In this document: positions 7,112-32,959 of the stretch, in pieces
How the letters are laid out: every line of letters starts with the position of its first letter
Position numbering within the stretch: the stretch's first letter is position 1
NCBI GenBank assembly: GCA_028286865.1
Contig: JAQBQU010000015.1
Location: 1-47,357 of the forward strand
Direction: 5' to 3'
Source of the DNA: Candidatus Kaiserbacteria bacterium
Lineage (GTDB): Bacteria > Patescibacteriota > Minisyncoccia > Phycocordibacterales > UBA2100
DNA: 47,357 bases
Translations under genes and position numbers: made by a program
The notes under the pieces: model-generated
What the model was told of the DNA's origin: nothing
Databases searched by the model: none
Seen by the model: only the letters and a program-made list of their open reading frames with translations

Positions 7112-8038
7112 ATGATCCTTCAAAAAAAGCGAATACGTAAGCTCGGGCCAAATGTCCCATTCCTGAAGCCCGGAGAAGTAGTAGTGATAGGTATACGCGA
7201 CCTCGATCGCTTTCCCGATCAGCTAACTAAGATCGGGCTTGGTGCGGATGTGCAGCCCGGAAGTTCCATACTGCCGGCCGGCCGTTTCGGACCGATCAGT
7301 GAATATAATGCGGACGGAAGAGTTGTCGTTCACAAGGATCAGCCAATGGAGACTGCATATCGATGGAGGGAGTGGACATGGACCGAGTGGCATGGCCGCG
7401 ATGCCGTTCAGAACTCAAAGTTCGTTGACGTTCCATACAAGAGATACCCTCGCAGCCATATCGATGCGATTGGAGTAGAGCTTAGTGTCTTTGCGGACAC
7501 GTCGGGCGCACTGATAATCACTGCACCCGCCCTGACACACACGCCAGAGAATGGAGAGTTGCTGCTGCACACGATTAATCTGATGCTGGAGATATTCGGA
7601 GAGTGTCACTTCTTCACCGAGAACCTCGAACAAATCATCAAGGTTCCGCTCAAGAGATTGAACTGGCAGCTGCTTCCTCCAGGAGAACGACCATGGAATA
7701 CCTTGCGGCAAGAACTCAGCTCCGTAGTGGATGCAGCTCCGGATGGTAAACGTGTCATCATCGAGCATCGGCTCGAAACGATAAATAAGTACAGCCCAGG
7801 CTTCGCTGCGGTGGGAAATGGCGGCTTCAGTGGCTATGTTGTGCTCGGCTTCCCTGAGAAGAACATGTACGTCTTAGAGAGCCTGCTCTACGGAAATGCA
7901 ACGTACGTACTGGGCACGGACTGGGAGGATCTCTCGCGTATGAGTAAGAAAGAGATCTTAGACGAGCAGCGACATCTCGGGAGGATAATTCATCGCGAAG
8001 GCTGGGAGAAGAACATGCGGAAAACTCTGACGACTTAG
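7112..8038 (+). CDS. Orphan protein, 308 residues, partner of YjzC-like gene
   Basis: I do not recognise this family. The protein is soluble, with no signal peptide or membrane helix. Residues 1-110 hold several W and R residues (YRWREWTWTEWHGRDAVQN). The central part is hydrophobic and beta-rich (IGVELSVFADTSGALIITAP), and the C-terminal third reads GNGGFSGYVVLGFPEKNMYVLES. It starts four bases after the YjzC-like gene and is divergent from immR, so it is the main cargo of the element's rightward operon. A defence or host-interaction role is possible, but no motif shows it. Its stop overlaps the end of the convergent next gene. Confidence 0.75.
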   Translation: MILQKKRIRKLGPNVPFLKPGEVVVIGIRDLDRFPDQLTKIGLGADVQPGSSILPAGRFGPISEYNADGRVVVHKDQPMETAYRWREWTWTEWHGRDAVQNSKFVDVPYKRYPRSHIDAIGVELSVFADTSGALIITAPALTHTPENGELLLHTINLMLEIFGECHFFTENLEQIIKVPLKRLNWQLLPPGERPWNTLRQELSSVVDAAPDGKRVIIEHRLETINKYSPGFAAVGNGGFSGYVVLGFPEKNMYVLESLLYGNATYVLGTDWEDLSRMSKKEILDEQRHLGRIIHREGWEKNMRKTLTT

Positions 8039-8502
8039 CTGGATCGAGCCGCGGATCTGACTGTGACTGTGCGGGATATGCGACTGATCTCTTCTTTGAG
8101 TTCGATCTCATTCTCGCTCCTATTCTCAAAGACTCCCGTTTGCAGCTCTGCACGTAACAGCGCTACTTCTAACTGAGCAACTAACTTTATAGCCGCGAGT
8201 CGGTCTTTAAATCCTATGTCGCGACCCTTATACGCAATGGTTGTTAGATCTTTAATGAACTTTTGATATTGTTTGCGCACTTCAGCGATCCGCTCCTCCA
8301 CACGGGGCCGATCCGCTAACCCCTGTGTCAGGGTAATGCGATTTTCATTCATTATGCGAGCGACGTATTTGTCACTGATCGACCGGCCCGTGCTGTCCTT
8401 TATGATTGTCTGCATGCTTCGTATTGAGACGAGCGGATCGTTTGCAAGCGCTTCGGAAATAATACCGGAGAGAAAATGGCGCTGCTGAGGTAAGACTTTC
8501 AT
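8035..8502 (-). CDS. Orphan protein with predicted N-terminal helix-turn-helix
   Basis: A 155-residue helical protein. Residues 1-60 look like a winged helix or helix-turn-helix (IRSMQTIIKDSTGRSISDKYVARIMNENR). The rest is a long charged helix (RVEERIAEVRKQYQKFIKDLTTIAYKGRDIGFKDRLAAIKLVAQLEVALLRAELQ) that could dimerise. I recognise no family; phage small terminase-like or transposon-encoded DNA-binding proteins have a similar build. A repeat with two GTCGTA units (GTCGTAGTATGTCGTAC) lies about 5-21 bases upstream of the start and could be its operator. Ends overlap the convergent 7112-8038 gene by four bases. Confidence 0.65.
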   Translation of the reverse strand: MKVLPQQRHFLSGIISEALANDPLVSIRSMQTIIKDSTGRSISDKYVARIMNENRITLTQGLADRPRVEERIAEVRKQYQKFIKDLTTIAYKGRDIGFKDRLAAIKLVAQLEVALLRAELQTGVFENRSENEIELKEEISRISRTVTVRSAARSS

Positions 8503-24500: not shown

Positions 24501-24983
24501 ATGGCCAAGAAATCATCCTTCTTCTCCAAGATCACCGGCTCTTCGTCGAACGACCAGTACGATGAATTCTTCGACGACGCCCCGGTTCAGAGATCTGCCG
24601 ACACCGTGAGCGTGAATGCGCGCGACAACACCTGGGCTCCGGAAGACTCTGCCGGAGGTGAGCTTGCCGTCGACGTGTACCAGACCCCTGATGCCATCGT
24701 CGTAAAGGCGCTCGTGGCGGGCGTACAGCCCGGCTCTATCGATATCTCGCTCACCCGCGAGATGCTCACCATCTCCGGCACGCGTGAAGACGAGCGTGAA
24801 GTCCAGGATGAGGGTTACTTTCAGCGCGAACTCTACTGGGGGTCATTTTCCCGCACTATCCTGCTTCCCGAAGAGATCGACGTGGATCTCGCTGAAGCCA
24901 CCGAAAAACACGGCATCCTCATGATCCGTTTGCCTAAAATAAATAAGAAACGACAAACTAAATTAAAGGTCAGAAGTCGTTAG
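24501..24983 (+). CDS. Small heat-shock protein (Hsp20/alpha-crystallin)
   Basis: A 160-residue ATP-independent chaperone. After a polar N-terminal arm (1-45) comes the alpha-crystallin domain (LAVDVYQTPDAIVVKALVAGV...LTISGTREDERE...YFQRELYWGSFSRTILLPEEI), with the C-terminal motif LMIRLPKINKK. TATAAT (24487-24492) lies eight bases before the ATG. The last codons, from about 24927 on, switch to AT-rich usage (AAA, ATA, AAT, TTA, AGA). A GC-rich synonymous copy of the last nine codons plus stop lies 47 bases after the stop, so the 3' end appears to have been replaced. Confidence 0.93.
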   Translation: MAKKSSFFSKITGSSSNDQYDEFFDDAPVQRSADTVSVNARDNTWAPEDSAGGELAVDVYQTPDAIVVKALVAGVQPGSIDISLTREMLTISGTREDEREVQDEGYFQRELYWGSFSRTILLPEEIDVDLAEATEKHGILMIRLPKINKKRQTKLKVRSR

Positions 24984-24991
24984 TATTTGTA

Positions 24992-25026
24992 TCCCCGGGG
25001 TCCCCAGCACTTGCTGTTGGGGTTTC
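24992..25026 (+). terminator. Terminator between functional and displaced hsp20 ends
   Basis: CCCCAGCA pairs with TGC...TGGGG (25002-25022, with a bulge), followed by TTTCTC. It lies wholly between the two copies of the hsp20 3' end. Confidence 0.55.
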
Positions 25027-25030
25027 TCAT

Positions 25031-25060
25031 CAGACCAAGCTCAAGGTCCGCAGCCGCTAG
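25031..25060 (+). pseudogene. Displaced original 3' end of hsp20
   Basis: These 30 bases encode QTKLKVRSR and a stop, exactly the last nine residues of Hsp20 (24954-24983). Nine of 30 bases differ and every difference is synonymous. The codons (ACC, AAG, CTC, CGC, AGC) match those in the body of hsp20, whereas the functional copy is AT-rich. It has no start codon. Confidence 0.85.
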
Positions 25061-25069
25061 ACCCCTCGC

Positions 25070-25098
25070 TTGACCGTATCCCAGCCTCACCGTAGGCT
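25070..25098 (+). promoter_or_regulatory. Promoter of phosphatidyltransferase gene
   Basis: TTGACC (25070-25075), 17 bp, TAGGCT (25093-25098). With the GGGAGG site it marks this gene as an autonomous unit. Confidence 0.5.
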
Positions 25099-25141
25099 GT
25101 TCTTTGGGCGGCATATGCCGCATTCAAAACGGGAGGCTGCA

Positions 25142-25825
25142 ATGACGTATAAAGGCACGATGCGTACATTGCGGGCGATCCCAAATGTACTCACCGGCGG
25201 GCGCGTCGCGGTTGCGATGCTCATCCTCTTTGTGTCTTCGTGGGAACTCGTTGCTCATCAGGTTGATCTCCTGCGCCCCTTCAGATTGTCGAGATGGTTC
25301 GACCTGAACTGGTGGTACATGTTTTTGTCCCTCGTCGGGGCTATCAGCGACGCACTCGATGGCTTCCTGGCACGGCAATTTAAAGAACACGGATGGGAAA
25401 CGCCGTTCGGTCGCAAGTGGGATCCGTTTGCAGACAAGGTGTTCATGTTCGTACTGATGGGAGTGATCCCGCTGTGGCTCGATGCCGGTTACGAATTTCT
25501 GGCCGGCTACGTGCTGTTAGCATTGTTCATCAGTTGGTATTCTTGGCAAACCTCACGTATGCGCTGGGAGGGCCTGATAGAATCTGCCAACTTCCCCGCA
25601 AAAGTGAAGACGTTCGCTCTCATGTTCTCACAGCTTCTATTCATGGCGCATATCGCACATGAAAGTCTGCCGAAGATGGTCAGCAAGTATGAGGTCGCCA
25701 TCTTTACCGTCGCTACGGCGCTCATGATCATCGCGACCATCTGTTGCGTCTTTGCGATCCGCGACTACTACAAGCAGGCCGGGCTGATGATCCGGCAACG
25801 TCAAAATACGACTCGCCCCACCTAG
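25142..25825 (+). CDS. CDP-alcohol phosphatidyltransferase family protein
   Basis: A 227-residue integral membrane enzyme that joins a CDP-activated lipid to an alcohol; phosphatidylglycerolphosphate synthase (PgsA) is the commonest member. The metal-binding motif is present as SDALDGFLAR, then 11 residues, then GRKWDPFADK, giving DxxDGxxAR...GxxxDxxxD. The gap of 11 instead of the usual 8 is unusual. Start 25142 follows GGGAGG by five bases; an in-frame upstream start lacks such a site. It has its own promoter and a terminator that overlaps its stop codon. The acceptor alcohol cannot be inferred. Confidence 0.85.
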   Translation: MTYKGTMRTLRAIPNVLTGGRVAVAMLILFVSSWELVAHQVDLLRPFRLSRWFDLNWWYMFLSLVGAISDALDGFLARQFKEHGWETPFGRKWDPFADKVFMFVLMGVIPLWLDAGYEFLAGYVLLALFISWYSWQTSRMRWEGLIESANFPAKVKTFALMFSQLLFMAHIAHESLPKMVSKYEVAIFTVATALMIIATICCVFAIRDYYKQAGLMIRQRQNTTRPT

Positions 25826-31202: not shown

Positions 31203-31217
31203 CACATTCGTCAGCTG

Positions 31218-31253
31218 AACGGCCGGGCTCAAGCGCCCGGCCGTTTTCTTTTA
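31218..31253 (+). terminator. CGGCCGGGC-family terminator 4
   Basis: AACGGCCGGGC, loop TCAAGC, GCCCGGCCGTT, then TTCTTTT. The core is nearly identical to those at 31622 and 32874. Confidence 0.85.
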
Positions 31254-31621: not shown

Positions 31622-31657
31622 AACGGCCGGGCCTCAAGCGCCCGGCCGTTTTTCTTT
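31622..31657 (+). terminator. CGGCCGGGC-family terminator 5
   Basis: AACGGCCGGGC (31622-31632), loop CTCAAGC, GCCCGGCCGTT, then TTTCTTTG. The preceding bases (GGTTCGCAAGTGAAAG) also resemble those before terminator 6, so the repeated block is longer than the hairpin. Confidence 0.85.
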
Positions 31658-31985: not shown

Positions 31986-32003
31986 GACGATCCTATGTAT
32001 GAT
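31975..32003 (+). promoter_or_regulatory. Promoter of the YggU-family gene with palindromic spacer
   Basis: TTGCTG (31975-31980), 17 bp, TATGAT (31998-32003), six bases before the ATG. The spacer is almost entirely the inverted repeat ACATAGGA-CGA-TCCTATGT (31979-31997), a good operator candidate. Confidence 0.55.
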
Positions 32004-32009
32004 GATGCG

Positions 32010-32234
32010 ATGCATATCAAAGTGAGGGTAAAGACGGGAGCGAAGAATGAGAGCATCAGGAAGGTCTCCGACGATCACTACGAGATATCGGTCCGCGAGA
32101 AGCCGGAGGCCAATATGGCCAACAAACGCGTCCTCGCACTCATGGCGCGGGCTCTCAACCTCCCCGCCGCTCGCATCCGCATTACCAAAGGCCACCATTC
32201 CCCCTCCAAAATCCTCTTGGTAGACACAAAATGA
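32010..32234 (+). CDS. YggU/DUF167-family protein (UPF0235)
   Basis: A 74-residue member of the DUF167/YggU family: HIKVRVKTGAKNESI, then DHYEISVREKPEANMANKRVLALMARAL and the ending IRITKGHHSPSKILLVDTK. Structures of the family are known but its function is not. The start at 32010 is chosen because TATGAT lies six bases before it; an in-frame ATG at 31995 would be upstream of the -10 box. The last 16 codons have a diverged duplicate at 32910-32959, after another gene and its terminator, so the 3' end seems to have been replaced by an insertion. Confidence 0.88.
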   Translation: MHIKVRVKTGAKNESIRKVSDDHYEISVREKPEANMANKRVLALMARALNLPAARIRITKGHHSPSKILLVDTK

Positions 32235-32357
32235 ACCCAGGTATAGGATGCCCGAGGAATACCAATCCCAGTCGTGATGACTGGTCGTCGGCGTAAGCCG
32301 AATAAGGGCAGCCGTCTCTCCTGCCGTACCGAGAGACTGATGAACTGGGAGGTCGTG

Positions 32358-32858
32358 ATGACCGCCGCTATCGATCGTTTTAACGTCTTCGATCCGAAGC
32401 TTTTGGAAGCACTGCAGCTCATTTCTGATCCGACCCAAACGGTGTGCAGGCACATTGATAGAGGTCAAATATCGGGCAAATTTGATCTGCACAACGCAAT
32501 CTTCCCGCCCACCGGCTTCCACCGGAACGACGTGCCCATGCGTGTTCGTTTCCAAATGGAGGGCTACCTCAATCACGAGCTTGACCTCATGATACTGATG
32601 TACGCCGACACGATGAGTGGGCCATTTTCTTGCCTCGGCCTGATCAGTCACGACCAGCACGCCGGGATGAAAGAGGTCATATCGTTCCCGAGCGACTACA
32701 CCATGCAGTTCATTGGGATCAAATACAATCCGAATTCTCGCGAAGGAAAGATCTTCATCCCCAAGGACACATATCGACTCCTGGAAGTGAAGTACTCGGA
32801 GGACCTGTATCGTATCCGCGTTGCCGCGCTCAACGCCATCAAAACCGTCTCTAACTAG
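32358..32858 (+). CDS. Orphan protein, 166 residues, cargo of a yggU 3'-end insertion
   Basis: I recognise no family. It is a soluble, probably alpha/beta protein (LDLMILMYADTMSGPFSCLGLISHD, then EVISFPSDYTMQFIGIKYNPN and a charged C-terminal helix). The start at 32358 follows GGGAGG closely. Upstream is a GGTATAGGAT box like those of other autonomous units, and terminator 6 follows. The gene lies exactly between the two copies of the yggU 3' end, so it looks like the single cargo gene of a small insertion. Confidence 0.65.
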   Translation: MTAAIDRFNVFDPKLLEALQLISDPTQTVCRHIDRGQISGKFDLHNAIFPPTGFHRNDVPMRVRFQMEGYLNHELDLMILMYADTMSGPFSCLGLISHDQHAGMKEVISFPSDYTMQFIGIKYNPNSREGKIFIPKDTYRLLEVKYSEDLYRIRVAALNAIKTVSN

Positions 32859-32873
32859 TTCGCCAATTGAAGG

Positions 32874-32905
32874 AACGGCCGGGCTCTCGCCCGGCCGTTT
32901 TGTTT
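32874..32905 (+). terminator. CGGCCGGGC-family terminator 6
   Basis: AACGGCCGGGC (32874-32884), loop TCTC, GCCCGGCCGTT, then TTGTTTG. It ends five bases before the displaced yggU 3' end. Confidence 0.85.
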
Positions 32906-32909
32906 GAAT

Positions 32910-32959
32910 AAAGGCCACCGTTCCCCTCCGAAATCCTCTCAATTGACTCCCGTTCATGA
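32910..32959 (+). pseudogene. Displaced, frameshifted 3' end of the yggU-family gene
   Basis: AAAGGCCACC is identical to 32187-32196 of the functional gene and the similarity continues through the C run and TCCTCT. Restoring one C in the C run gives KGHRSPSEILSIDSRS and a TGA at 32957-32959, a plausible YggU ending beside the functional KGHHSPSKILLVDTK. It has no start and is frameshifted, as expected for a displaced remnant. The promoter of the next gene now overlaps it. Confidence 0.75.

Follow-up and report, generated by a model that had tools for sequence, protein, structure and literature searches.

In a Candidatus Kaiserbacteria genome and its relatives, the ends of conserved housekeeping genes have been displaced while the encoded proteins are left unchanged, and a hairpin often stands at the illegitimate junction. 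The arrangement recurs within one group of bacteria, which suggests that DNA is repeatedly added to gene ends in this manner. Our reference case is hsp20, the gene for a small heat-shock protein, in a window of 47,357 nucleotides (the whole stretch of DNA analysed; contig JAQBQU010000015.1 of assembly GCA_028286865.1). The genome to which the window belongs (0.87 Mb in 21 contigs) is fragmented and about 90% complete; about 243 kb of it, and 207 kb of a relative, G034, were examined. The hsp20 relatives that bear titles are mostly Candidatus Kaiserbacteria, and almost all are metagenome bins.

The peptide QTKLKVRSR followed by a stop codon is encoded twice, at positions 24954-24983, where it forms the end of the working hsp20 gene (CAAACTAAATTAAAGGTCAGAAGTCGTTAG), and again at 25031-25060 (CAGACCAAGCTCAAGGTCCGCAGCCGCTAG). 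The two copies are alike at 21 of 30 bases, and all nine differences are synonymous and run in one direction, the working copy being A/T at every such site and the downstream copy G/C. Between the working stop codon and the second copy lie 47 bases, including a terminator-like hairpin (Table 1). Direct reading of the sequence agrees with the first-pass annotation, which had described a recurrence of the last nine codons and stop with synonymous changes only, an AT-rich functional copy facing a GC-rich downstream one, and a short spacer holding a terminator. The working tail is a compositional outlier: GC3 is about 0.7 along the gene body (0.62-0.81) and 0.19 in the final 16 codons, a value as low as that of just 0.3% of 4,632 16-codon blocks from 220 long ORFs of the same genome.

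Table 1 Features of the displaced gene ends in the window.
Feature	Position	Strand	Evidence
hsp20, small heat-shock protein, working copy with apparently replaced end	24501..24983	+	160-aa ORF; PF00011 HSP20, E=2e-15
AT-rich, putatively incoming hsp20 tail (left boundary approximate)	24932..24983	+	GC3 0.19 versus 0.62-0.81 in the body; unlike the tails of the closest-body genomes
Terminator-like hairpin, CCCCAGCA-CTTGC-TGTTGGGG, then TTTCTC	25002..25022	+	Pattern scan and fold, -16.1 kcal/mol for the 47-nt spacer
Putative displaced native hsp20 tail, QTKLKVRSR and stop	25031..25060	+	26/27 identical to the G001 and G031 tails; 81 bp ahead of the downstream ATG
Terminator-like hairpin, probable original hsp20 end, in a G019-like leader	25082..25099	+	Pattern scan, leader comparison
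CDP-alcohol phosphatidyltransferase (pgsA-like), native downstream neighbor	25143..25825	+	PF01066, E=3.3e-14; same family behind hsp20 in G019 and G040
yggU (DUF167), same layout as hsp20	31995..32234	+	PF02594, E=9.6e-17; sequence
Cargo ORF between the two yggU tails	32358..32858	+	Sequence read
GGCCGGGC terminator hairpin immediately ahead of the displaced yggU tail	about 32872..32901	+	Sequence
Putative displaced, decayed yggU tail fragment	32910..32939	+	About 28/31 identical, one base missing

Chance is excluded for practical purposes as the origin of this repeat. A search of 4,293 ORF tails, each with 500 downstream bases, for tail repeats matching at nine of nine residues returned one real case, that of hsp20; the permutation control gave none in four of five permutations and two in the fifth. 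Scanned at every ORF end, the window yielded no other full tail repeat. Across the 52 genus genomes, a degenerate pattern of the hsp20 tail had 48 matches, and where a genome held a second match, it lay exclusively behind hsp20. We also considered a diversity-generating retroelement with a VR/TR pair, which would place most differences at adenines of the template and alter amino acids; it was rejected, as all nine differences are synonymous and set A/T in the working copy against G/C downstream.

Several comparisons support the reading that the downstream copy is the displaced native tail and the upstream, working tail the newcomer, as the first-pass annotation had proposed; nearest relatives, synteny and a drift simulation agree on it. 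The body of the window's hsp20 is nearest to those of genomes G001 and G031 (78%). These carry one GC-rich tail each, which is identical to the displaced copy at 26 of 27 bases and to the working tail at 63-67%; the window has two tails around a 47-bp insert. The working tail is most like those of G039, G023 and others that are not closest in the body. Across 43 genomes, the closer the hsp20 body, the closer as a rule the displaced copy (rho 0.46, p=0.0017), with no such prediction for the working tail (rho -0.14), a contrast that supports the polarity without proving it, the body/tail correlation being weak in general (per-genome values -0.25 to 0.52). The displaced copy sits at the position of a native tail, since its stop codon lies 81 bp ahead of the downstream ATG, close to the native spacing in G019 (84 bp) and G040 (70 bp), where a gene of the same CDP-alcohol phosphatidyltransferase family follows; from the working stop to the same ATG the distance is 158 bp. 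The leader ahead of the downstream gene also resembles that of G019. Finally, in the drift simulation a stranded hsp20 copy had a chance of about 5-7% of taking two neutral hits without an amino-acid change, and of at most 5e-6 of taking all nine. A stranded, unconstrained copy would soon lose its amino-acid identity, so that, on the sequence evidence, the working tail must have diverged before it arrived.

Displaced tails were found at six hsp20 loci: the window, four relatives (G026, G038, G035 and G014) and one Taylorbacteria genome. In G026 and G038 the interval between the tails is 44-59 bp, the figure varying with the alignment of the shorter copies, and it holds a double hairpin of the CGTC type common to both genomes; both tail pairs differ at synonymous sites only (7 of 7 in G026). 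The tails of G035 enclose 1.1 kb of cargo with two ORFs, and those of G014 enclose 2.6 kb, where an IS200-like (Y1) transposase is among four ORFs. The first-pass annotation had looked to relatives for genes between the two tails or for a single GC-rich tail, and both are represented, the former by G014 and G035 and the latter by G001 and G031. The displaced copy in the Taylorbacteria genome (locus L159) is about 24 codons long, and the 15-codon stretch compared begins 151 bp past the hsp20 stop. An AT-rich incoming end is strong in the window and G026, and absent in G014, in G035, in the Taylorbacteria case and at tsaD (see below). The same comparisons bear on whether the repeat is an assembly artefact, in which two strain variants of the hsp20 end were joined in a metagenome-assembled genome. 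Such an origin might be suspected in a fragmented and incomplete genome whose titled relatives nearly all come from metagenome bins, yet the copies are 70% identical, too low for an overlap join, and six independent assemblies, drawn from two candidate lineages, show the layout, their copies being separated by homologous hairpins or cargo. We regard it as the least probable of the explanations considered.

The first-pass annotation had likened hsp20 to a YggU case with cargo, and the same arrangement is indeed present at 31995-32939 of the window: the gene, an ORF, a terminator and a decayed tail (Table 1). The GGCCGGGC hairpin occurs three times, at 31217-31251, 31622-31657 and about 32873-32901, behind successive small genes upstream and downstream of yggU, an order that suggests a row of inserted cassettes. 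Elsewhere in the same genome, contig C13 (L091, 1367-2705) carries a cassette-like array, in which a gene tail with its terminator occurs three times (93-98% identity) and each interval holds one small gene on the opposite strand. A repeated PEP-synthase tail on contig C14 (L092, 771-2012) was rejected as a displaced tail: here two adjacent genes with PEP-utilising domains have their final 17 residues identical and the remaining domain diverged, as tandem paralogues.

The layout of working end, cargo, hairpin and displaced end is found at uvrD and at an RND transporter gene as well as at yggU. Behind uvrD of G034 (L057, 4829-7058), two successive displaced tails follow two different inserts, one of which is a Y1 transposase gene between GTAG palindromes; the cargo behind this gene includes a 299-aa ORF. 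The RND transporter gene of G034 is followed by a Maf gene and a displaced end of 215 bp, 88% identical to the working end; within 177 nt compared, synonymous codons account for 14 changes and a non-synonymous codon for 1. Gene heads are displaced at recR in G034, tsaD in G026 and lepA in G024 and G040. The recR head (L063, 5483-5647) is duplicated around an insert of 41-43 bp with a weak hairpin. At lepA, the displaced heads lie upstream (L040, about 8138-8362; L042, about 7883-8116); the working heads of the two genomes are similar and the displaced heads differ almost only synonymously. Examined as a possible conserved leader peptide, displaced lepA heads were present in just 2 of 52 genomes. 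Either one mobile insert entered both genomes, or the displaced head may be translated as a leader. In G038 (L075, 3979-4827), a HEPN/MNT toxin-antitoxin-like pair is flanked by the two copies of a 65-bp, 98% identical duplication of a neighboring gene's end and adjoins the displaced hsp20 tail. Since several genes are hit, at heads as well as tails, the phenomenon concerns gene ends in general, not hsp20 or 3′ ends alone. The synonymous bias across these cases arises in part from finding some of them by peptide match; among those found by nucleotide self-comparison it is mixed, strong at the RND gene and not seen at uvrD.

Some of these copies are nearly identical, namely the flanking copies in G038 (64/65), G035 (51/53), G014 (61/64) and recR of G034 (58/60), as well as those of the C13 array. 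They would fit a local duplication, in which the insertion copied its target on the spot, as a long target duplication or through tandem slippage, and synonymous drift of the working tail followed. Insertion with long target duplication was reported by Nobusato et al. (2000) for restriction-modification genes of Helicobacter pylori, as described in PMC1643837. As far as that description goes, the likeness lies in cargo flanked by direct repeats of the target and in selfish-looking cargo, here the HEPN/MNT pair; the insert in the window is likewise flanked by direct repeats that are single-copy in G001 and G031, as long target duplication requires. So described, however, the process predicts copies that are initially identical, and those of the window, G026, G038 and the RND gene are already synonymously diverged, which indicates a donor-derived end. 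None of the nine differences in the window changes an amino acid in what would be an unconstrained copy, and all run the same way; G026, at 7 of 7 synonymous, and the RND gene, at 14 to 1, behave likewise, and the working tail does not follow the relationships of the gene body. Local duplication is therefore improbable as an account of the phenomenon, and in its plain form it was rejected for the window, given the simulated chance of nine neutral changes on the stranded copy. Some of the related events with near-identical copies may nevertheless be target duplications.

The best explanation, and in our judgment the probable one, is that related DNA was taken up and joined by homology on one side and by end-joining on the other, that is, by homology-facilitated illegitimate recombination (HFIR). 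The donor would have been a second Kaiserbacteria-like cell, probably one richer in AT, whose DNA entered an ancestor, and homologous recombination within the 3′ part of hsp20 would have supplied the donor's last 10-17 codons and the donor terminator; we thus propose that the hairpin at 25002-25022 arrived together with the incoming tail. At its far end the DNA would have been attached, with no homology involved, immediately ahead of the ten final codons of the recipient's gene, which would thereby have been cut off beyond the new terminator. As both tails specify one peptide, hsp20 would have stayed intact and the event survived. Cargo between the terminator and the old tail may never have been present or may have been deleted later; in relatives, the same kind of event would have brought cargo, and it would be repeatable at one gene.

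Under HFIR, the left junction would fall within homologous coding sequence, the working tail being a foreign-looking version of the same gene end. On the right, where a join without homology is expected, the bases preceding the displaced copy (TGGGGTTTCTCAT) are unlike the gene upstream of the CAG codon, and likeness begins at CAG. Duplicated stretches measure anything from about 20 to 215 bp and include heads as well as tails, as one-sided homology predicts. The mechanism is documented in naturally transformable bacteria and has been invoked for displaced 3′ ends in the type VI secretion (T6SS) clusters of V. cholerae (PMC5361080). DNA uptake has been reported for Patescibacteria (PMC12455944), and the window's genome encodes ComEC (PF03772, E=8.9e-42). 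When 52 genus genomes and 247 order genomes were searched for a donor of the AT-rich tail with its terminator, weak tail matches were all that came up. Against HFIR, the stranded copy, at 30 bp and 70% identity, does not allow the crossover to be located; the near-identical copies in G014, G035, G038 and recR fit local target duplication equally well; known cases are rare; and the hairpin directly ahead of the displaced copy, seen in most cases, is not predicted.

A working replacement end with a displaced original end is also the expected product of site-specific, prophage-like integration at a gene's 3′ end, if the element was lost afterwards. The prophage e14 enters the 3′ end of icd in this way, bringing a replacement end and leaving the original at its far side. 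Here, unlike at icd, the cargo measures 0-2.6 kb, gene heads are hit as well, and there is no constant core, the duplicated copies starting at different codons within the same gene. ORF and Pfam checks found no tyrosine-recombinase gene between the tails of G014 or G035. With no integrase recognised in these inserts and no constant core, a site-specific integrase was rejected for the window, and we consider this route very improbable in general.

Displaced copies usually start directly behind a hairpin. At the window's hsp20, at yggU and in one uvrD case it is an ordinary terminator. A GTAG-type palindrome (AATGTAGGACATCCGATGTCCTACATT) abuts the displaced copy at hsp20 and uvrD in G014, at hsp20 in G035, and at uvrD and the RND gene in G034, and CGTC-type double hairpins abut the displaced hsp20 copy in G026 and G038. 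Folding of the junctions revealed no strong hairpin in three cases (twice on contig C13 and at the neighboring gene in G038). Just 5 of the 21 palindromes examined abut a displaced gene end, so that a palindrome alone does not imply one. The count of displaced copies at palindromes is itself inflated, the G034 loci having been fetched for their palindromes; the hsp20 cases of G014 and G035 were chosen otherwise. G014 has six exact copies of the palindrome and G035 two. The palindrome GTAGGACATCNGATGTCCTAC, a GTAG-type REP-like repeat, is present in 4 of 52 genus genomes (G014, G034, G035 and G044, with 2-9 exact copies each). Y1 transposase matches number 0-12 per genome among nine genomes checked.

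These repeats raise the alternative that a REP/hairpin system is at work, in which RAYTs or unknown enzymes insert hairpin-ended DNA together with a gene-end copy, the hairpin being the right end of the element and the window's insert a miniature element. Both GTAG and CGTC REPs have been described, the GTAG ones as probably RAYT-mobilised (PMC3733652), and the displaced ends resemble the REP, RAYT and REPtron systems of that account in having such palindromes downstream of genes and, in G014 and G034, a Y1/IS200-like transposase gene between two GTAG palindromes. The window departs from them in lacking both tag and transposase, and duplicated gene ends do not figure in descriptions of the known REPs. 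A profile search of its genome, at about 90% completeness, found no Y1_Tnp match, and the genome has no GTAG palindrome; the hsp20 hairpin, an ordinary terminator without a GTAG or CGTC tag, was not found repeated in the donor search of the 52 genus genomes. To our knowledge, IS200/IS605 elements do not carry gene ends. A RAYT-driven event at the window's hsp20 is thus unlikely, and we hold the REP/hairpin explanation as a whole to be unlikely too, the most credible nonetheless of those set against HFIR. The first-pass annotation had held that the tail came with an inserted element; the incoming tail is supported, and a dedicated tail-carrying element would be the less economical reading, since one-sided homologous recombination explains with less the hits on gene heads, the spread of lengths and the lack of a detected Y1 transposase.

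Among known systems, HFIR as proposed here is closest to the C-terminal displacement described for V. cholerae T6SS effector/immunity arrays (PMC5361080) and Rhs loci. There, too, homology anchors one side and the other join is non-homologous, the 3′ end of a gene is replaced, the old end and the genes with it are pushed downstream, and repeated events build arrays. Those systems exchange variable effector domains, whereas here the conserved ends of housekeeping genes are exchanged for others with an unchanged peptide sequence; what stays stranded is very short, the junction usually carries a hairpin or REP, and heads are affected too. The mechanism is thus known in principle, and what is new are the housekeeping targets, the stacking and the hairpin or REP junctions. 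A possible link to REP palindromes might go beyond what is known in kind, and the association bears on the question of RAYT function. A bolder reading, which we offer as speculative and on balance doubtful, is that mobile cassettes of Kaiserbacteria, in which a recoded gene end is followed, with or without cargo in between, by a hairpin or REP, enter the ends of essential genes, replace them synonymously and stack, with REPs and RAYT-like enzymes supplying the non-homologous end.

The stranded native end is a readable fossil of gene gain in ultra-small, host-dependent bacteria, recording the place and direction of joining even after the cargo has gone. Because the pair of a synonymous working end and a stranded original can be detected by a simple scan, the rate of such events and their cargo become measurable across Patescibacteria. 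The hsp20 end, used repeatedly in several genomes, is a natural hotspot for their study.
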